From positions 372,001 through 436,000 of the forward strand of contig PNMZ01000001.1 in NCBI GenBank assembly GCA_013823945.1: DNA of 64,000 bases, written 5' to 3'. A model generated the notes under the pieces. That model was not told the DNA's origin. It saw only the letters and a program-made list of their open reading frames with translations, and ran no database searches. Position 1 is the first letter of the stretch. Every line of letters begins with the position of its first letter. Shown here piece by piece: positions 6,578-60,951 of this stretch. The translations under genes were made by a program, and so were the position numbers. Source of the stretch: a bacterium (GTDB lineage: Bacteria; Armatimonadota; Fimbriimonadia; Fimbriimonadales; Fimbriimonadaceae).

Positions 6578-6594
6578 TCGGTAAACTCTCCCCA

Positions 6595-7470
6595 ATGCCA
6601 AATCGCCTTGATCATTTTCAGGTTGCATGTCTTCAAACCAAACCGATCAAAGGTGACCTCGACGCAACTCTTAACCATTTGGCTGAATCAATCCGCCAAG
6701 CCGCCGACGAAGGAGCCGACCTTGTTGTCCTCCCCGAGTCTGCCCCCACCGGATATGTATTGGAAGGCGGAGTCAACTCCCTCGCTCTCACTGCCCAAGA
6801 ACTCAATGATCACCTCAGCCAGCGCCTCCAAAACCTCCCCAAACCCCTGGACATCGCCATCGGCTATTACGAGTCAAGCTCAGTGCGGCCATACAATTCT
6901 GCGGCCTACATCTCGATAGAAGAAAACCGGGCCACTCTCCTCCACAACTACCGTAAGTTCTTTCTCCCCACATACGGCGTCTTCGATGAACACCGATTCC
7001 ATGAGCCAGGTGCCGAACTTGGCATTGTCGAGACGCGGTTCGGACGAATCGGTCTGCTCATTTGTGAAGATATCTGGCATTCAATCCTCCCGACTCTTCT
7101 CACCGTTGCTGGCGCCGAGCTCATCGTAGTCCACTCCGCAAGTCCCGCCCGAGAATTCCAATCCGACAAACCCGGCAATTTGATCCGATACGACAATATG
7201 ATCCAAAGCCTCTGCTCTGAGCACGGCGTTTTCTGCGCAATGGCCATGCTCGCCGGATTTGAAGGTGGCAAAGGCTTAACTGGAGGATCACAAATCGTAA
7301 GCCCGCTGGGAGACTGCCTCGTCCAAGCCAAAAACTTTGGCGAACAAATCATCATCACTGAGGTTGACCTCCGGCTGGTTGAGCAAGCTCGGTCAAATAC
7401 TCCCCTCGCCGCAGATCTCAAAGAACGGTGGCGCGACATCGTCCGCATTGCCATGCAACTGGAAAAATAG
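6595..7470 (+). CDS. Carbon-nitrogen hydrolase (nitrilase superfamily), NadE-glutaminase-like
   Basis: A complete 291-residue single-domain nitrilase-superfamily amidase. The Glu-Lys-Cys triad is visible as E48 (VVLPES), K121 (NYRKFFLPTYGVFDEHRF) and C157 (GLLICEDIW). The wording around Lys and Cys is closest to the glutaminase domain of glutamine-dependent NAD synthetase, but no synthetase domain follows. The protein could be a stand-alone amidase or a glutaminase partner for a separate NadE; substrate cannot be read from sequence. It starts 17 bases after the helicase gene without a Shine-Dalgarno sequence. TAAACT at 6582-6587 lies seven bases before the ATG, consistent with a leaderless transcript of its own. 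Confidence 0.85.
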   Translation: MPNRLDHFQVACLQTKPIKGDLDATLNHLAESIRQAADEGADLVVLPESAPTGYVLEGGVNSLALTAQELNDHLSQRLQNLPKPLDIAIGYYESSSVRPYNSAAYISIEENRATLLHNYRKFFLPTYGVFDEHRFHEPGAELGIVETRFGRIGLLICEDIWHSILPTLLTVAGAELIVVHSASPAREFQSDKPGNLIRYDNMIQSLCSEHGVFCAMAMLAGFEGGKGLTGGSQIVSPLGDCLVQAKNFGEQIIITEVDLRLVEQARSNTPLAADLKERWRDIVRIAMQLEK

Positions 7471-10770: not shown

Positions 10771-10854
10771 TCACTCAAAATGTGCCGTATCTTCGAAAAA
10801 ATTCAGGATGCGGCACAAAACCATTTTCGCTCTCCTTCGTTTATACTTTATGAT

Positions 10855-11226
10855 ATGAAACTGCTTCTGACTTTCGTTGCCGCCAGTGCCGTTCTCGGCG
10901 TCGGCCTTCTCACCCCCGCCCAAGCCCAAACCAAAGAAGTCAGTTTCAAGAAAGACGTCACTCCCGTCCTCAAAAAGTACTGCTACAACTGTCACGCTGG
11001 AGAAAAATCCAGCCACGGACTCAAAGTTGACAGCTACGACAACATCATGAAAGGCTCGAAATACTCGAAGGTCGTCAAGCCCGAGAAGAGTGCCGAAAGC
11101 GTTATCATCCGATCCGTCAAAAACCAACCCGGCGGAACCAAAATGCCTCCCGGACGCCGCTCTGTCTCAGAATCAGAAATCAAAATTATCGCCGACTGGA
11201 TTGACCAAGGCGCAAAGAACAACTAA
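10855..11226 (+). CDS. Small periplasmic c-type cytochrome
   Basis: A 123-residue exported protein with a signal peptide ending about AQAQ (residues 21-25) and one haem c site, C43-Y-N-C46-H47. A later Met in GGTKMPPGRR could be the distal haem ligand, and the protein ends in the helix IKIIADWIDQGAKNN. This is the short planctomycete-type cytochrome domain (PSCyt1-like), normally fused to larger proteins, here free-standing. The start at 10855 is chosen because the signal peptide begins there. TATACT at 10842-10847 lies seven bases upstream with no Shine-Dalgarno sequence, suggesting a leaderless mRNA. The next gene is a lipoprotein version of the same domain, so the pair probably carries electrons in the same envelope pathway. 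Confidence 0.8.
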   Translation: MKLLLTFVAASAVLGVGLLTPAQAQTKEVSFKKDVTPVLKKYCYNCHAGEKSSHGLKVDSYDNIMKGSKYSKVVKPEKSAESVIIRSVKNQPGGTKMPPGRRSVSESEIKIIADWIDQGAKNN

Positions 11227-11257
11227 ATTCCATAACGATTAGGATAAACTGCCGCAC

Positions 11258-11695
11258 ATGAAACGTGTGGCAGTTCCCATTTTGGCTCTTGGCATTTTCT
11301 TGATCGCCTGCTCATCCCAAACTCCCGAGCCAAAACCATCAACCTCGGAAACCACCCAATCCGCTGATTCCAACCAGGAGCCCCGCGTCGAACCTGGTCT
11401 CCAAACCGTCACCGTCTCGTTCAAAGAAGACATCAACCCGCTGATCCAAGCCAACTGTCTTGGTTGCCATAGTGGCCCCAAGGCAAAAGAAGGCATCGAC
11501 ATGTCTTCATATGACCTTTTGACCACCTCCGGTGAGCACGGCGCGATCATTAAACCCGGCGATTCATCCGGCAGCCTCATGATCAAAGCCATGACGGGCG
11601 ACGGCGTCGACATTATGCCCCCCGCCGGAAAACTCCCCGACGACAAGATCGAACTCGTTGCTCAATGGATCGATGCCGGCGCCAAAAACGACTAG
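11258..11695 (+). CDS. c-type cytochrome lipoprotein
   Basis: A 145-residue protein with a lipoprotein signal (FLIAC, lipidated Cys at residue 18). A Pro/Ser/Thr-rich linker of about 30 residues follows, then a cytochrome domain with C67-L-G-C70-H71 and a possible distal Met in VDIMPPAGK. The domain is clearly paralogous to the preceding gene: FKEDINPLIQANCLGCH here against FKKDVTPVLKKYCYNCH there, and both end in W-I-D-x-G-A-K-N. The lipid anchor would tether this copy to a membrane while the neighbour is soluble. TAAACT at 11245-11250 lies seven bases before the ATG, again without a ribosome-binding site. Confidence 0.8.
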   Translation: MKRVAVPILALGIFLIACSSQTPEPKPSTSETTQSADSNQEPRVEPGLQTVTVSFKEDINPLIQANCLGCHSGPKAKEGIDMSSYDLLTTSGEHGAIIKPGDSSGSLMIKAMTGDGVDIMPPAGKLPDDKIELVAQWIDAGAKND

Positions 11696-11768
11696 GTCAA
11701 CCCCCTAGGCCACTGCCGAACCAATCCAACCCAAACGAGTAGAATCCATTAGGTTCAAACCGACCTCC

Positions 11769-14500: not shown

Positions 14501-14625
14501 CATGCCTCCGGAAACCCTTTGTCAGAGAGTAAGCAAAGGGCAAAGAACCTATACTAACCGTGAATATTCTTTATCCCCATCCTTACCCCTCATAAAGCGG
14601 CCCAAACCGAGTATCCTCTGTAAAA

Positions 14626-16062
14626 ATGCCCAACTTTCCCATGATCATTCAAGGCGGCATGGGCGTCGCCGTCAGCAACTACACCCTTGCCCGAGCAGTA
14701 GGCAAAACAGGCAACATGGGTGTCATCTCCGGAACCGGAGTGGATGCGGTTCTCTCACGCCGACTTCAAATGGGTGATCCCACCGGCGAGCTCAAGGACG
14801 CCTTCGCTGCATTCCCCCTCCCCGACATGGCCAAAAGAGTCTGGGATAAGTACTTCCGCGCCGACCGCGACCCCAGCAAGCCATTCCTCTCCCGACCACT
14901 CCCAAACAACGAACCGGGCAAAGCCTGGTTCGAACTCGCCATCGTCGCCAATTTCGTCGAAGTCTGGCTGGCCAAACGCGACCATTCCGCCCCCATTGGC
15001 ATCAATCTTCTCGAAAAAATCCAAATTCCCCACCTCGCTTCCCTCTTCGGAGCGATGCTCGCGGAAGTTGACTTTGTTCTCATGGGTGCCGGAATCCCCC
15101 GCCAAATCCCTGCCGCCCTTGATTCCTTGGCGGAGATGAAGGAAACCAAGTACCGCATCAACGTAGATGACAATCCCGACAACGAAGCCTTCTATCACAC
15201 CTTCGACCCCAAAGCCATCGCAGAATGGGGCATCAGCAAACTCAAGCGACCCAAATTTCTCGCCATCATCAGTAGCAACATCCTCGCCCTTCAGATGGTC
15301 AAAAAGTGCACTCCGCCCGTCGATGGACTCATCGTTGAATTCCCCCTCGCCGGTGGACACAATGCTCCCCCACGAGGCCCCATGGTTCTCGACGAGAACA
15401 ACGAACCGATTTACGGACCCAAAGACGAAGTTGATCTCGCCCAAATCGCTGAACTCGGAGTTCCCTTCTGGCTGGCCGGAGCCTACGGTCAGCCAGAAAA
15501 GCTCAACGAGGCCCTCGAAGCTGGCGCCTGCGGAATCCAAGTCGGCACTGCATTCGCTTTCTGCAACGAAAGCGGCATCGAACCCACCCTCAAACAACAA
15601 ATTATCAACGACGTGAAGGCGGGCAATATGAGCGTCCACACGAACGCATCGGCTTCTCCCACCGGATTCCCCTTCAAAGTCGCCCAAGTCAAAGGCACTC
15701 TCAGCGAAATCGCAACCTACAAGAAGCGTAATCGCATCTGCGACCTCGGCTATCTCCGCACACCCTACCGAAAAGACGATGGCACTCTCGGCTACCGCTG
15801 TCCCTCTGAACCTGTCGAGGACTACCTCAAAAAAGGCGGCAAACTCGAAGAAACCGTCGGTCGAATGTGCGTCTGCAACGGCCTGTATGGCACTATCGGA
15901 ATGCCCCAAATTCGCAAAGATGGAGCCATCGAACCAACTCTTGTCACCTCAGGAAACGACTTGATCAAGATCACCGACTTCCTCCCCGGAGACAAAACGA
16001 GCTACTCCGCCGCCGACGTCGTCGCCCATCTGCTAAGCAAACTCCCGGTGACAGCAAAGTAA
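14626..16062 (+). CDS. Nitronate monooxygenase-family flavoprotein
   Basis: A 478-residue protein of the FMN-binding nitronate monooxygenase / 2-nitropropane dioxygenase TIM-barrel family. The opening MIIQGGMGVAVSNYTLARAV and the later LAGAYGQPEKLNEALEAGAC then GIQVGTAFAFCNESG are the usual FMN-site blocks. It is longer than the roughly 320-350 residues of classical nitronate monooxygenases, with an extra C-terminal part containing several cysteines (RICDLGY, RCPSEP, MCVCNG). FabK-type enoyl reductases share the fold, so the substrate is uncertain. TATCCT at 14612-14617 lies eight bases before the ATG and no Shine-Dalgarno sequence is visible. Confidence 0.75.
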   Translation: MPNFPMIIQGGMGVAVSNYTLARAVGKTGNMGVISGTGVDAVLSRRLQMGDPTGELKDAFAAFPLPDMAKRVWDKYFRADRDPSKPFLSRPLPNNEPGKAWFELAIVANFVEVWLAKRDHSAPIGINLLEKIQIPHLASLFGAMLAEVDFVLMGAGIPRQIPAALDSLAEMKETKYRINVDDNPDNEAFYHTFDPKAIAEWGISKLKRPKFLAIISSNILALQMVKKCTPPVDGLIVEFPLAGGHNAPPRGPMVLDENNEPIYGPKDEVDLAQIAELGVPFWLAGAYGQPEKLNEALEAGACGIQVGTAFAFCNESGIEPTLKQQIINDVKAGNMSVHTNASASPTGFPFKVAQVKGTLSEIATYKKRNRICDLGYLRTPYRKDDGTLGYRCPSEPVEDYLKKGGKLEETVGRMCVCNGLYGTIGMPQIRKDGAIEPTLVTSGNDLIKITDFLPGDKTSYSAADVVAHLLSKLPVTAK

Positions 16063-17428: not shown

Positions 17429-17500
17429 GCGAAACTAGCTAAACACCAGACTCGACTAACTCCTAGACCACACGCTTTACCCTGCCATACTCAAACCAAG

Positions 17501-18370
17501 ATGTTTAAAGGCTTCATGAACAACGTCGACCGACTCCTCGGGCGCGGCGTCATTGATGAAGACCTCTACGAAGAACTCGAGGAAGCTCTCCTCGCCGCCG
17601 ATACCAGCATCACCACCACCACAGAAATCCTCAACGAGCTCCGCCAAGCCGTCCGCGAAGAAAAAGTCAAAACTCCCGACGCCATTAAAGAACGGCTGAA
17701 AGAGTCAATTCGCGCCCGGTTTTCCCAGCCCGGCGAATCCCTCCTCTTCCGCAATTTCCCCCCCTGTGTGTATCTCTTCGTTGGGGTAAATGGAGTCGGC
17801 AAAACCACGTCCATCGGCAAACTCGCCACTCGCCTCACCAAGGAAGGCCGAAAAGTCATCCTCGCCACTGGCGATACATTCCGCGCCGCCGCCATTGAAC
17901 AACTCGAAATCTGGGCTGAGCGATCCGGAGCCGATATTGTCAAAGGTCAGCCCGGCTCAGACCCCGCCGCCGTCATATTTGATGCCATCCAAGCCGCCAA
18001 AGCCCGGGGAGCCGACTACGTCCTTGCCGATACCGCCGGTCGCCAGCACAACAAAGCGAACCTGATGAACGAACTCGCCAAAATCGCCCGAGTCGTCGAA
18101 AAAGGAATCGGACGTAAAGCTGATGAAACCCTCCTTGTTCTCGATGCCAATACTGGCCAAAACGCTATCCGCCAAGCCGAGGAATTTTCTGTCGCCACAG
18201 GCGTCACCGGCTTGGTTCTCACCAAACTCGATGGCACCGCCCGTGGCGGCGCCCTCATCGGCATTTACGACAAATTCGGAATTCCGATCAAGCTCATTGG
18301 TGTCGGCGAAAAAGCCGAAGACCTCCAGGATTTCAACCCAGAGGTCTTCGCCAACAACATGTTTAATTAG
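17501..18370 (+). CDS. ftsY: Signal recognition particle receptor FtsY
   Basis: A 289-residue SRP-receptor GTPase that docks ribosome-SRP complexes at the cytoplasmic membrane. It has an N domain of four helices (residues 1-80) and an NG GTPase with GVNGVGKTTSIGKLA, the insertion-box DTFRAAAIEQLE, DTAGRQHNKANLMNEL and TKLDGTARGG. The acidic A domain found in enterobacterial FtsY is absent, so this is the short form. CATACT at 17486-17491 lies nine bases before the ATG and no Shine-Dalgarno sequence is present. The stop codon overlaps the stop of the convergent DUF1232 gene. Confidence 0.96.
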   Translation: MFKGFMNNVDRLLGRGVIDEDLYEELEEALLAADTSITTTTEILNELRQAVREEKVKTPDAIKERLKESIRARFSQPGESLLFRNFPPCVYLFVGVNGVGKTTSIGKLATRLTKEGRKVILATGDTFRAAAIEQLEIWAERSGADIVKGQPGSDPAAVIFDAIQAAKARGADYVLADTAGRQHNKANLMNELAKIARVVEKGIGRKADETLLVLDANTGQNAIRQAEEFSVATGVTGLVLTKLDGTARGGALIGIYDKFGIPIKLIGVGEKAEDLQDFNPEVFANNMFN

Positions 18371-20041: not shown

Positions 20042-20084
20042 CTGAAAGCCAAGTCTACCGCCCCAAAATGAACCTGCGTCAGAC

Positions 20085-28853: not shown

Positions 28854-28888
28854 CGTCCCCCTATTGTAGCAAATGTTGAACAAAACAC

Positions 28889-38391: not shown

Positions 38392-39786
38392 TTATCTCCT
38401 GAAAAGCGAATCAATCAACAGTGCACTAGACAAAAGCGAACTCACTTGACCAATCGTAAGCCCTCGCCGCTCGCCGACCAGAACGATGTCGCCCGGCATA
38501 ATCTCCGGATTCTGACTCATGTCCCCATCCTTCAAGAACGCCGCCAATTGATACTCTTTCACTTCAACTTTCCCACCCTCGCCTTGCCGTCCGACATAAA
38601 CACGCTGGGTCGTCCCTTGTGCATCCGGACCACCCGCTTCCGTCACGGCATCCGCTAGCCGATACTCACGACCAATCAACATGGGCACAGGTCGGGGTCG
38701 GGCAACATTCCCAACCACCAAGAACCGTCTTTCATTCCGTCGGACAAATATCAAATCCCCATCTTCAACCGGAAAAGCCGGAACACTAGAACCCGTTTGG
38801 AACCGCGAAAGATCAATCAGAAAACTCTCTTGACCCCGAATCACCAAAACATCCGCCAGAGATCCATCTGCGCGCACCCCCCCCGCCCGCTGGATCGCTG
38901 TGAACAAGTCCGTACCTTTCCGCAAAGTCTGCTGACCCGCCGTTCCAATTTCACCCCCAATATTCACCCGAATCCGCTCCGGAATCGATACCAAAATCGT
39001 ATCGCCAGCCTCGAGCGTAAATCGAGGCAACTTTGGATCGTCGTTGACTTCAAAAACGTTTGTTCCCCGCCGAACCTCAATCGAATACTCAATCTCGCCA
39101 AATGTCGCTTCTGTAGTCCCTCCCGCCAAAGCTAACGCCTGCAACGCATCCGTCCCCTCTAAAACCTGGAACTCACCTGGACGCAATACTCGCCCTCCTA
39201 CATAAATGCGATGTTTCACCACTTCCGCCAACGTCACGACATCATTCGGCTTCAATTTGGTTGATCCAAATTCACCCACCCCTTTCAATACTCGCTCAAG
39301 AGACTCTCGACCAACCAAATTACCGTCACGAAAAAGACGCAACTCAAACTCCTGAGAGTTGACCGGTAAGGGAACCCCCGAAACTGCCCGCCGAACATCC
39401 AATTCCGGCTCAAAAGGAATCGGACCCGGCGCAACTCCGACCAAACTGGTGACAAAGACAAATTTCGGCTTCTGTTCAACAATGACCAAGGAAACCGTCG
39501 GCGACCTGAGAATTTTGAGAAATTGATTCCGCAAAAGGATACGTGTTTCTTCGACCGTCTTCCCCGCCACAACAAGCCGACCAAAACCAACCCCGGTCAA
39601 TGATCCATCATCCAGAACAACATATTCCCCGTTGTACCGTTCATCTTCTGTCACGACCACGCGTAACTTATCCCCAACTTGAATCTTCGCCACCGGAGCT
39701 GTCTGCCCCGTCATCAATGCCACCAAAAGGAGTGCCGAAGCTCCTGCCATAACTACCAGGATACCAAAGCGAACCCGAAAGCCCAA
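38392..39786 (-). CDS. Polysaccharide export protein with SLBB repeats (Wza-like)
   Basis: A 464-residue exported protein. An N-terminal hydrophobic segment (residues 8-27) precedes a Poly_export domain (IQVGDKLRVVVTEDERYNGE, then VVLDDGSLTGVGFGRLVVAG). SLBB repeats follow, for example RIYVGGRVLRPGEFQVLEGT then ALQALALAGG, and RVNIGGEIGTAGQQTLRKGT. A third is VVGNVARPRPVPMLIGREYR. The C-terminus is hydrophobic. It would form the outer-membrane or periplasmic conduit for the glycan made by the surrounding cluster. TTG at 39786 is kept because it gives a basic n-region; the ATG at 39750 would remove it. It is divergent from the legF operon with only 48 bases between. Confidence 0.85.
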   Translation of the reverse strand: MGFRVRFGILVVMAGASALLLVALMTGQTAPVAKIQVGDKLRVVVTEDERYNGEYVVLDDGSLTGVGFGRLVVAGKTVEETRILLRNQFLKILRSPTVSLVIVEQKPKFVFVTSLVGVAPGPIPFEPELDVRRAVSGVPLPVNSQEFELRLFRDGNLVGRESLERVLKGVGEFGSTKLKPNDVVTLAEVVKHRIYVGGRVLRPGEFQVLEGTDALQALALAGGTTEATFGEIEYSIEVRRGTNVFEVNDDPKLPRFTLEAGDTILVSIPERIRVNIGGEIGTAGQQTLRKGTDLFTAIQRAGGVRADGSLADVLVIRGQESFLIDLSRFQTGSSVPAFPVEDGDLIFVRRNERRFLVVGNVARPRPVPMLIGREYRLADAVTEAGGPDAQGTTQRVYVGRQGEGGKVEVKEYQLAAFLKDGDMSQNPEIMPGDIVLVGERRGLTIGQVSSLLSSALLIDSLFRR

Positions 39787-43884: not shown

Positions 43885-43914
43885 TTGATCTTCTTTCATG
43901 CTTAAATAACAAGC

Positions 43915-44898
43915 ATGAACTGGAACGGCAAGCGCGTCCTCGTCACCGGAGCCGGAGGCTTCATCGGAAGCCACCTCGCCGAAGAACTCGTTCGACGTGG
44001 AGCCGAAGTCACTAGCTTCGTTCGCTACAACGGCCCCGGACGATGGGGCTGGCTCGACGAGTCCCCACTCGCTAACCAAATGCGCATCCACGCCGGAGAC
44101 ATTGGCGACAACGAATCAGTCGTCGAGGCAATGACCGGTCAAGAAATCGTTTTCCATCTTGCCGCCCTGATTGCCATCCCGTATAGCTATTCCGCACCCC
44201 GCAGCTACATCCGCACAAATATCGAAGGCACCATGAACGTCGTGAATGCTGCTCGCACTCTCGGAACCGAACGCATCATCCACACCAGTACGTCCGAAAC
44301 CTATGGAACCGCCATCACCGTCCCAATCACCGAAGACCACCCTCTCCAAGGGCAATCCCCGTACAGCGCTTCAAAAATTGGCGCCGACAAAATCGCAGAG
44401 AGCTTTTATCTCAGCTTCAACGTTCCAGTGGTAACGATTAGACCGTTCAATGCATTTGGTCCTCGCCAATCCGCCCGCGCCGTCATCCCAACCATCATCA
44501 GTCAGCTTTACAAGGGCGAAGCCGTCAAACTCGGCTCAATCACCCCAACCCGTGACCTCAACTTTGTTTCCAACACCGTCGAAGGATTCCTTGCCGCCGC
44601 TGAGCCAACCGCTGCCATCGGACAAACGATCAACCTCGGCAGTAACCGCGAAATCAGTATCGGCGACCTCGCCCACCTCATCGCGAAACTCATGGGCAAG
44701 CCAATCGAGATCATTACCGATTCCCAACGCCTGCGCCCCGAAAATTCCGAAGTCGAGCGCCTCCTCGGTTCCGCCGAGAAAGCCCGCGAACTCCTTGGCT
44801 GGACCCCCCGCGTCACTCTGGAAGACGGACTCATTCAAACAATTGATTGGATGGCCAACCATCTTGCTAAATACCGACCGGAAATTTACGCCGTCTAA
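43915..44898 (+). CDS. legB: NDP-sugar 4,6-dehydratase, LegB-like
   Basis: A 327-residue extended SDR. The NAD loop is VTGAGGFIGSHLAEEL, active-site threonine-region HTSTSETYGTA, and the catalytic YSASK lies in SPYSASKIGADKIAESF. The early block FVRYNGPGRWGWLDE is typical of LegB-type dehydratases. It would convert GDP-GlcNAc to the 4-keto-6-deoxy sugar. TTAAAT at 43902-43907 lies seven bases before the ATG with no Shine-Dalgarno sequence, so an internal promoter is possible. legC follows after four bases. Confidence 0.88.
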   Translation: MNWNGKRVLVTGAGGFIGSHLAEELVRRGAEVTSFVRYNGPGRWGWLDESPLANQMRIHAGDIGDNESVVEAMTGQEIVFHLAALIAIPYSYSAPRSYIRTNIEGTMNVVNAARTLGTERIIHTSTSETYGTAITVPITEDHPLQGQSPYSASKIGADKIAESFYLSFNVPVVTIRPFNAFGPRQSARAVIPTIISQLYKGEAVKLGSITPTRDLNFVSNTVEGFLAAAEPTAAIGQTINLGSNREISIGDLAHLIAKLMGKPIEIITDSQRLRPENSEVERLLGSAEKARELLGWTPRVTLEDGLIQTIDWMANHLAKYRPEIYAV

Positions 44899-49841: not shown

Positions 49842-51089
49842 TCAACTTCGCTTCCGGCGAGTTCCAACTAACAAACCAAAAAGTCCACCCGCAAAACCCG
49901 GAATTGCCACGTTGGTCAATAACGATTTGTTGACTGGCTTGTCAAGAATGTATGGATCGTCAATCGCTACCCAATCTGGTACCGCTGTTGAAACCTTCAG
50001 TTGCTCAGAATCAAACTGCTCACGAATCAGCATATATGCCTTGCGCTCAAGCTCAATCTTGTTCAGCAACTCTCGAAACCGAGAAGCCTCTTCCGGTGCC
50101 GCGATCGCCTTTTTCCGCAGATCATCCGCTTGGAACTCCAATACGACTTTCCGACCGAGTAAATCGGCCGTTTCGGCATTCGCTCCACTTTGAACACTCT
50201 TGACATAGTTTGTTATGCGAGTACGCAAGTTCTTTTGAGCATCGTCAAGCTTCTCTTTAGCTTCCCGGTACTGAGAAGTCCCCGGCTGGTACTTCGCCTT
50301 AGCCGCATCAAACTCAACCTGAGCTTCGGCCAGTTTCTCGCGCCACACCTTCTCTTCTTCCAATCCCGTCGGCAGACCAACCGAACTCGCTGACCCAATT
50401 CGAGAAGCAGACTTCTGAACCTCTGCAATCTCTTCTTTGACCGAGCTCAGCTCAAACTGAACCCGTTGAAGCTGCGCCAAATAGGTGCCCCCTGTGTATT
50501 CGTCTTCTTTGGTTGGAACAGTATCAGAAGTCTCAAGGGCGTCCAGAAGTTGAGATTCCAAGTCATCCACCTCTTTTCCCTTTTCCTCCATTCGTTTGAT
50601 CAAACCCACCATCCGATTCGCACTCGCTCCAGTCGAAACCTGGCTGTTTGCTGTATCAACAAATGATTCTGCGCGCCTCAGTGAAGCCAAAGCCTGATCT
50701 ACACTATCTCCAACAAACCCCACCCTCAACTGACGCGAAATCGGGTCAGCCTCAACCGTCATCGCTTTGCGCACATCCAAAGGCTTCATTTTGGCAACCT
50801 CACCAATCGCCTCTAATGCTGATCTTGTTGAGAGTAACCCCGCCACGTAACTGATTCCCGAAACATCAGATCCGTCAATTGCTCCCGTCAACACACTCAA
50901 TTCCGCTTTAGCCGAAGCGGGAAATACTAAAGTCATCTCTGCGCGATATTTTGGCGGAGCAATGAAGTGAACGCCCAACCCAACAACCCCAAATAGAACC
51001 GCCCCACCTAAAGCTGATTTCCAGTTCCAGAACCGAGAACTCAAAAGCTCTGCGACATCAATTTCATCTCGGCCCGGCTCATCCGCCAT
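49842..51089 (-). CDS. Polysaccharide co-polymerase (Wzz/GNVR-type chain-length regulator)
   Basis: A 415-residue protein with the PCP layout. A short cytoplasmic tail and a first transmembrane helix (about residues 26-46, GGAVLFGVVGLGVHFI) come first. A long periplasmic region follows, with extended coiled coil at about residues 160-330 (for example EDELEDD-type heptads in LEEEKVWREKLAEAQVEFDA). A second transmembrane helix lies near residues 390-408. No tyrosine-kinase domain is attached. It should set chain length or assist export of the polymer. Confidence 0.82.
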   Translation of the reverse strand: MADEPGRDEIDVAELLSSRFWNWKSALGGAVLFGVVGLGVHFIAPPKYRAEMTLVFPASAKAELSVLTGAIDGSDVSGISYVAGLLSTRSALEAIGEVAKMKPLDVRKAMTVEADPISRQLRVGFVGDSVDQALASLRRAESFVDTANSQVSTGASANRMVGLIKRMEEKGKEVDDLESQLLDALETSDTVPTKEDEYTGGTYLAQLQRVQFELSSVKEEIAEVQKSASRIGSASSVGLPTGLEEEKVWREKLAEAQVEFDAAKAKYQPGTSQYREAKEKLDDAQKNLRTRITNYVKSVQSGANAETADLLGRKVVLEFQADDLRKKAIAAPEEASRFRELLNKIELERKAYMLIREQFDSEQLKVSTAVPDWVAIDDPYILDKPVNKSLLTNVAIPGFAGGLFGLLVGTRRKRS

Positions 51090-51136
51090 ACAAGCAATTT
51101 TAGCATATCACCCCAATTCGCCAAATCCGAACAAAT

Positions 51137-57943: not shown

Positions 57944-58105
57944 ATCCAGAGCCTGTGAAATACCCTGCTCCATATTCGTCACTGATTCCAAACTGCCCCC
58001 CTCCGTCACTTCGACTTCAGAGTTCCAGAGTGACATTGAAATCCCGCCCCATCGACGTCCCAGACCCCAAACCCCACCCCCTCAGGTATCATAAAGCAGA
58101 CCCGA

Positions 58106-58179
58106 GCGGGAGTAGCTTAGTGGTAAAGCTCCAGCCTTCCAAGCTGGCTATGCGAGTTCGATTCTCGTCTCCCGCTCCA
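58106..58179 (+). tRNA. tRNA-Gly (anticodon TCC)
   Basis: A complete cloverleaf with encoded CCA: acceptor GCGGGAG pairs with CTCCCGC, D arm GCTT/AAGC, anticodon stem CCAGC/GCTGG with loop CTTCCAA (anticodon TCC at 58138-58140), T arm GCGAG-TTCGATT-CTCGT. It reads GGA and GGG. A T-rich run follows immediately. Confidence 0.97.
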
Positions 58180-60622: not shown

Positions 60623-60678
60623 CAGCAAAAACGAAATTGAGTTGCACGCAGGTCCCAAAATTCTCGTAAAATCACCGG

Positions 60679-60951
60679 ATGGGCGATCCTTGGCTCTGCA
60701 TCTGTGGCGAAACCAATACTGGCCCTGCCTGTTCCAACTGTGGTCAGTCTTTTGCCGCCTCAACTCAGCAAGATCAGTTCCAAGAAAGTGACGCCCTGAT
60801 CGCTCAGGGCCGCGGGAACATGCTCGGAATCCTCACCACCAATTCTCGATCTGCTGCAATTCCCGGATGCCAAATCATGATATGGATCATCATCATCGGC
60901 ATTCTCGGCTCATGGCTCGTTCCCGTTGTTCTTGGTTTCCTCCGAACCTAG
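60679..60951 (+). CDS. Small zinc-ribbon membrane protein
   Basis: A 90-residue protein. The N-terminal zinc ribbon has CICGETNTGPACSNCGQSF (C-x-C...C-x2-C), followed by a polar linker and one C-terminal transmembrane helix (about residues 66-86, QIMIWIIIIGILGSWLVPVV). The family is not recognised. TAAAAT at 60667-60672 lies six bases before the ATG, suggesting a leaderless mRNA. It is divergent from the SPFH operon and shares the repeat array with it. Its last four bases overlap the convergent SRPBCC gene. Confidence 0.65.
   Translation: MGDPWLCICGETNTGPACSNCGQSFAASTQQDQFQESDALIAQGRGNMLGILTTNSRSAAIPGCQIMIWIIIIGILGSWLVPVVLGFLRT

Follow-up and report, generated by a model that had tools for sequence, protein, structure and literature searches.

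Candidate -10 boxes directly before start codons in a genome of the Armatimonadota

The window, a stretch of 64 kb (G000:C1:372001-436000) from a genome (G000) that comprises 19 contigs and 3.16 Mb, carries seven plus-strand genes whose ATG is closely preceded by a putative -10 box. TAAACT (6582-6587), with CGG just before it, stands seven bases ahead of the ATG at 6595 of a carbon-nitrogen hydrolase gene (6595-7470). Two genes for PSCyt1-type cytochromes (10842-11695 with the upstream region) lie 31 nt apart and each has a candidate box of its own before the start: TATACT (10842-10847) for the small first one (10855-11226; gap of 7 to ATG 10855) and TAAACT (11245-11250) for the second (11258-11695; gap of 7 to ATG 11258). 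TATCCT (14612-14617), directly behind GAG, precedes by eight bases the ATG at 14626 of a nitronate-monooxygenase-like gene (14626-16062), and the -10-like CATACT (CCCTGCCATACT; 17486-17491) precedes by nine the ATG at 17501 of ftsY (17501-18370), which has another in-frame ATG five codons downstream. The remaining two are a candidate TAAAAT (60667-60672), six bases before the ATG at 60679, whose gene product (90 aa) matches no family, and a weak candidate, TTAAAT (43902-43907), for which position is the one argument, seven bases before the ATG at 43915 of a LegB-like dehydratase gene that follows a co-directional one at a distance of 30 nt. A preliminary description of this DNA had placed hexamers before these same seven starts, and all seven were found where it put them. 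It counted three sites with exactly seven bases to the ATG, a number that has to be corrected to four (the gaps are 7, 7, 7, 8, 9, 7 and 6), and its wording TAnnnT-like holds strictly for five of the seven hexamers, not for CATACT (17501) and TTAAAT (43915).

That description covered the plus strand only, and the minus strand of the window has additional candidates. TAAAAT (51097-51102) and TATCCT (39758-39763) both stand seven bases from an ATG, at 51089 (gene 49842-51089) and at 39750 (an alternative start of the ORF 38392-39786) respectively, and both are found in the relative G061 too, the former with its flank partly changed. TACAAT (28863-28868; gap of 9 to ATG 28853) is present in another relative, G117, between diverged flanks, and G117 has TAAAAT at a place like that of TAGACT (20052-20057; CGG just before; gap of 10 to ATG 20041). 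On the plus strand, TATCAT (58087-58092, AGG just before) lies upstream of the tRNA-Gly gene at 58106 and serves as a reference for the housekeeping -10. Upstream of lepA (start 11769; region 11740-11768), TAGAAT is found 23 nt before the ATG, with no Shine-Dalgarno (SD)-like word between the two, and also TAGGTT at 13 nt; G117 has TAAAAT about 24 nt before its lepA start. This gene possibly represents a third mode, a short leader without SD sequence. As to base composition, GC skew is negative in 16 of 16 4-kb blocks of the window (-0.13 to -0.36) and AT skew is positive, with genes on both strands; over 1-64000 the skews are a strong strand bias.

We analysed the position of the box in a 1.21-Mb sample of G000, window included, in which a simple home-made coding-score script gave 923 genes with uncurated starts. 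Before 552 ATG starts, TANNNT was found at gap 6 in 6.7 % and at gap 7 in 3.3 %, against about 1 % far upstream and 0.5-0.6 % at gaps 6 and 7 before 6219 internal in-frame ATGs. GTG starts (163 genes) peak as well (7.4 % and 4.9 %), and no TANNNT peak was seen for the TTG starts (208 genes), perhaps because many of these are miscalled. A genome-wide -10 peak near -13 had been proposed as a check in the preliminary description; carried out here, this check shows the peak, and the hexamer begins at about -12 to -13. In the window alone, 23 of the 2004 ATGs on both strands have TANNNT at 6-7 nt. A free mixture model (TA class 52 %) was discarded, as its class had come to capture unspecific A-rich sequence irrespective of distance.

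For 756 of the 923 genes, those that have an ATG no more than 60 nt from the start given by the coding score and also the required neighbour, the context could be taken into account: 427 are operon-first, 131 have a co-directional neighbour 20-99 nt away, and 198 are tightly linked (less than 20 nt or overlapping). Compared with 200 dinucleotide-shuffled versions of the 40 nt upstream of every start, TANNNT at gaps 6-7 is in clear excess in operon-first genes (46/427 vs 9.3 ± 2.9, maximum 18; z 12.5) and in those with a neighbour at 20-99 nt (18/131 vs 3.3 ± 1.8; z 8.3), and is above chance in tightly linked genes still (13/198 vs 2.8 ± 1.6; z 6.3). Over gaps 5-13 the observed and shuffled numbers are 112 vs 41.1, 43 vs 13.6 and 21 vs 12.3 in the same order. 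The summed excess amounts to 109 of the 756 starts (14 %) at gaps 5-13 and to 73 (10 %) at gaps 5-8, a strict measure, since variants such as CATACT are uncounted. The excess at 9-13 nt implies that part of the boxed set would carry leaders of a few bases. The peak at gaps 6-7 is also found in relatives, with 22 of 301 starts in G061 (5.9 expected), 19 of 296 in G117 (8.7 expected) and 21 of 259 in G026 (2.9 expected).

The preliminary description held that boxes and SD sites coexist in this DNA, and SD-like 4-mers indeed exceed their control stretch in both contexts: they precede 86 of the 427 operon-first starts vs 42 in the control stretch, and 87 of the 198 tightly linked starts vs 22. A box at gaps 5-8 is present in 65/427 operon-first genes, 25/131 genes with a neighbour at 20-99 nt and 14/198 tightly linked genes, so that in the last group the box is about half as frequent, and SD more frequent, than in operon-first genes. 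An SD-like 4-mer occurs in none of the 65 boxed operon-first genes, where 5.3 would be expected from implanting the box letters into unboxed genes (0.007 of simulations); in the smaller boxed groups the counts are 1/25 and 1/14, no departure from the implant expectation. A stronger mutual exclusion of SD and TA signals, at p 1.5e-7, was dropped, much of it being the overlap of the two windows, for which the implant control gives the 0.007 above. Ribosomes without a working anti-SD occur in some Bacteroidota. In those the 16S 3' end is altered; here it is unaltered, as the 16S 3' ends of G000, G061, G026 and G012 all read GGATCACCTCCTTA, with the anti-SD kept. An altered anti-SD, suggested when the 16S-tail word GGCTGGATCACCTCCT went unmatched in two genomes, was rejected, because the 16S itself reads GGGTGGATCACCTCCTTA and is intact.

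The likeness of the box to housekeeping promoters was assessed on the 21 tRNA genes of the 1.21 Mb, of which 2 lie behind another tRNA and were set aside, leaving 19 leading ones. TANNNT is found 5-20 nt before the mature 5' end in 17 of the 19, and at 30-45 nt in 1. A nine-column matrix (threshold 5 bits) was built on 17 of the 21 tRNAs, with sites 8-17 nt upstream, a set slightly different from the 17 of 19. At these sites a G stands two bases before the hexamer in 14/17, one base before it in 11/17, and at either in 16/17. The three positions before start-codon boxes are G in fractions of 0.49, 0.44 and 0.36, vs 0.29, 0.33 and 0.23 for control hexamers, and the GG pair merely in 0.15 vs 0.11, a weaker lean than at the tRNAs. 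The matrix trained on tRNAs peaks 6-7 nt before the ATG: at gaps 5-8 it scores 42 hits over the 427 operon-first genes vs 9.0 per equal bin at 20-59 nt, and gives 19 vs 1.9 and 7 vs 1.8 per equal bin in the groups of 131 and 198 genes, while 3000 internal ATGs yield 13 matches. One tRNA-Val gene is preceded by CCTGCCATACT, identical to the sequence before ftsY. The strict word GTA[AG][AC][AC]T occurs at -21..-5 of operon-first genes 23 times in sense and never in antisense orientation; at -95..-15 of the same genes it has no strand bias (19 sense vs 16 antisense) and so gives no sign of many similar promoters further upstream. A -35 element (TTGACA, at least 4 matches, spacing 16-18) is not preferred, being found at 0.18 of 91 boxed sites vs 0.18 of 258 control hexamers. 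Judged by its sequence, then, the box looks like a housekeeping promoter; this indirect evidence favours a promoter role, and we prefer that reading because tRNA genes are not expected to have a signal for translation upstream. Outside the window, ARAGORN reports a tRNA-SeC in G000, with TAAACT 12 nt upstream, which suggests selenocysteine use.

We then compared G000 with its relatives. G061 is Armatimonadetes bacterium Uphvl-Ar1 (CP021423.1; unclassified Armatimonadota at NCBI), with 96 % protein identity over 750 residues; 248 of the 756 starts were compared (251 matches), 58 operon-internal ones being left out of the footprint. In 30 boxed genes that are not tightly linked, identity is 0.93-1.00 at the hexamer positions and 1.00 and 0.97 at the two bases ahead of them, vs an average of about 0.84 for positions -40 to -10 before the box and a flat profile of about 0.89 over 84 control hexamers further upstream. 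Over the last 15 nt, conservation is similar in boxed (0.93) and in 160 unboxed genes (0.91), and the contrast is therefore one with the boxed genes' own flanks. For G117 (median protein identity 69 %), 920 queries gave 266 matches, 252 of them kept, and 147 pairs with a shared start; a box at 5-8 occurs in both genomes in 11 of the 147, with 2.7 expected. Control bins also exceed expectation (7 vs 1.0 at d30-33, 5 vs 0.43 at d50-53), partly because some upstream sequence is coding. Among the 83 pairs with free upstream sequence, 8 have the box in both (2.2 expected), with controls of 3 vs 0.43 at d22-25 and 4 vs 0.66 at d30-33, and 7 of these 8 have just 17-40 % ungapped identity further up. 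The comparison with G026 is too small (756 queries, 113 matches, 110 kept, 62 usable; box in both for 2 genes).

Looking at the seven sites individually, the relatives' sequences give good support at 6595 (TAAACT in G061, TAGACT in G117), at 10855 (CGTTTATACT at the same gap in G061 though the sequence upstream differs) and at 17501 (CCCTGCCATACTCAA retained in G117, at 85 % protein identity, between diverged flanks). Support is moderate at 14626, where the box is kept in G061 and G117 has none, and weak at 11258, where the flanks are kept in G061 as well as the box. It is absent at 43915, with no match in the G117 stretch, and at 60679; at both, the flanks are conserved equally in G061.

The 6595 gene was followed through the family (f1): 57 of 61 family genomes searched have a match, and the best 30 of the 57 loci were analysed, in 20 genera, our own included. 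In 28 of these best 30 loci, and in 18 of the 20 genera, TANNNT lies 5-10 nt ahead of the start, in most cases with a gap of 6 or 7, and no SD-like word was found in any of the 30. With the starts that we chose for these loci, the gene begins five codons later than in the window in 26 of the 30 and four codons later in 1, and the box is shifted accordingly. For the 14626 gene, 16 of the best 30 of 34 family loci, own included, have TANNNT 4-14 nt before the start. Five family orthologs of this gene (L154, L158, L159, L161 and L164) are listed with one in-frame stop each (TAG, TGA, TGA, TAA and TAA) within the match, which may reach past the start.

To measure the distribution in the phylum we counted TANNNT-N6-ATG over whole genomes and compared it with the same-phase control TANNNT-N18-ATG; being counts at gap 6, they would miss families that prefer another gap, and AT-rich genomes have a high background. 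Counts of TATAAT alone are too sparse for G000 (7 matches). N6 exceeds N18 in 60 of the 61 genomes of family f1, with z > 2 in 48 and a median ratio of 1.40, vs a median of 0.99 in the 56 non-family genomes of the phylum sample, where 27 are above 1. Among these 56, z exceeds 2 in four, G013 (ratio 1.93), G027, G052 and G004 (1.09), and is below -2 in another four. G013, G027 and G052 belong to one order, in which 19 of 19 genomes are above 1 and 12 have z > 2 (median 1.20). The signal sits, by these counts, in two lineages, the family and this one other order. The group of G000 we take to be the Fimbriimonadia of GTDB. Two family genomes of 1.5 Mb, G088 and G105 (genus g75), gave no match when searched for the 6595 gene, and their ratios are 0.97 and 1.05, which may reflect either genome reduction or just a high background.

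The sequence evidence bears out the reading of these starts as leaderless-type in the preliminary description. On this evidence, it is very probable that many operon-first genes of G000 are leaderless or near-leaderless and transcribed from a -10 without detectable -35, beside SD starts. The promoter would be a housekeeping-type TANNNT -10, often with a G just before it, 6-7 nt (range about 5-13) before the start codon, and RNA polymerase would initiate at the A or G of the start codon or a few bases from it. The resulting mRNA would have no leader, or almost none, and its translation would proceed without SD pairing. We infer the exact transcription start and leaderless translation from what is observed: the box, its spacing and statistics, its conservation, its likeness to tRNA promoters and its lower frequency inside operons. 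The box could also be a real but minor promoter, the main transcript beginning further upstream with an ordinary leader. This would suit the 25 boxed genes (of 131) that lie 20-99 nt behind a co-directional gene, where read-through is possible, and likewise the 14 boxed ones of the 198 closer genes. We consider it unlikely, however. The 65 boxed operon-first genes are devoid of SD-like words, which would leave a leadered transcript with no ordinary place for the ribosome to dock; the region further up is no more conserved, and across the family start codon and box shift together.

Miscalled start codons, with the true start downstream and the box within a normal leader, are a very improbable explanation. 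Our starts were picked by a simple coding score, and ftsY does have its in-frame ATG five codons on. Against it, 27 of the best 30 of 57 loci of the 6595 gene have, by our choice, a start four or five codons further down than in the window, and in 28 of the 30 the box is 5-10 nt ahead of the start; alignments with G061 start at residue 1 for all seven window genes, and the peak is confined to one narrow distance. Since the hexamer adjoins the start codon, it might instead act on the mRNA as a translation signal, an AU-rich enhancer or S1 site, and passages of PMC5397173 discuss AU-rich start regions as possible S1 sites. We give this hardly any credence, as a similar box precedes untranslated tRNA genes, a matrix made from tRNAs alone detects the start-codon boxes, and tightly linked starts, which need translation signals equally, carry the box about half as often. 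Finally, TANNNT is loose, as the 23 of 2004 window ATGs illustrate, and the sites at 43915 and 60679 are without independent support, which would be in keeping with chance AT-rich hexamers picked by eye. The genome-wide excess (z 12.5), together with conservation, refutes this for the set as a whole, and we attach next to no weight to it.

That bacteria have leaderless genes whose start is preceded by a -10 box is already established, as the main texts of PMC3160421 and PMC12340547 describe. The TA-led genes of Zheng et al. (2011, PMC3160421) carry, according to its main text, a -10-like hexamer of the TAnnnT type some 10 bp ahead of the start and are mixed with SD-led genes, as here; they are negatively related to the operon-distal share, and here too the box is rarer in tightly linked genes. 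The leaderless groups that this text names include Acidobacteria, Actinobacteria, Aquificae, Chloroflexi, Deinococcus-Thermus and others; the terms Armatimon-, Fimbriimon- and Chthonomonas are absent from it. In Deinococcus-Thermus, the main text of Zhong et al. (2025, PMC12340547) reports a -10 adjacent to ORFs that is sufficient without a -35, gives leaderless mRNA and coexists with classical genes. G000 resembles this in having a putative -10 directly before the ORF, without detectable -35 and coexisting with SD starts; it differs in extent, with a strict excess of about 10-14 % of starts vs an average of about 30 % of ORFs. Armatimonad- is absent from that main text, whose domain-wide "common phyla" figure stands in the supplement. 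Within the phylum, Table 1 of PMC10783764 (PLoS One 2024) lists SD-bearing mRNAs at 25 % in Fimbriimonadia vs 70 % in Chthonomonadetes, which fits the within-phylum contrast; in section 16 of that study the Fimbriimonadia genes are not assigned to leaderless mRNAs or a -10 box. The words "promoter" and "leader" are absent from the main text of the Fimbriimonas genome paper (PMC4072686). In the main texts of the freely searchable literature, no record of the leaderless mode in Armatimonadota, a phylum that has received little study, was found. Other bacteria are already known to use this mode, and the lineage is apparently new for it.

Taken over the phylum, we tentatively propose, as a possibility somewhat short of an even chance, that leaderless starts mark family f1 and one other order and, being undetected in most other genomes sampled, were gained or lost within Armatimonadota; that the ORF-adjacent -10 lacking a -35 forms, in the lineage of G000, a class of promoter passed on by descent, with box and start codon moving together, as in 18 of 20 genera for the 6595 gene; and that, counting degenerate boxes such as the CATACT of ftsY, it may be the usual start of operon-first genes. 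Gene-calling programs built around SD sites may place starts wrongly in such genomes. The changes that enable leaderless initiation have so far been studied mainly in Deinococcota and Actinobacteria. Should some lineages of Armatimonadota prove to initiate commonly without a leader while their relatives do not, the phylum would offer a comparative test bed for the promoter, initiation-factor and ribosome changes that permit it.
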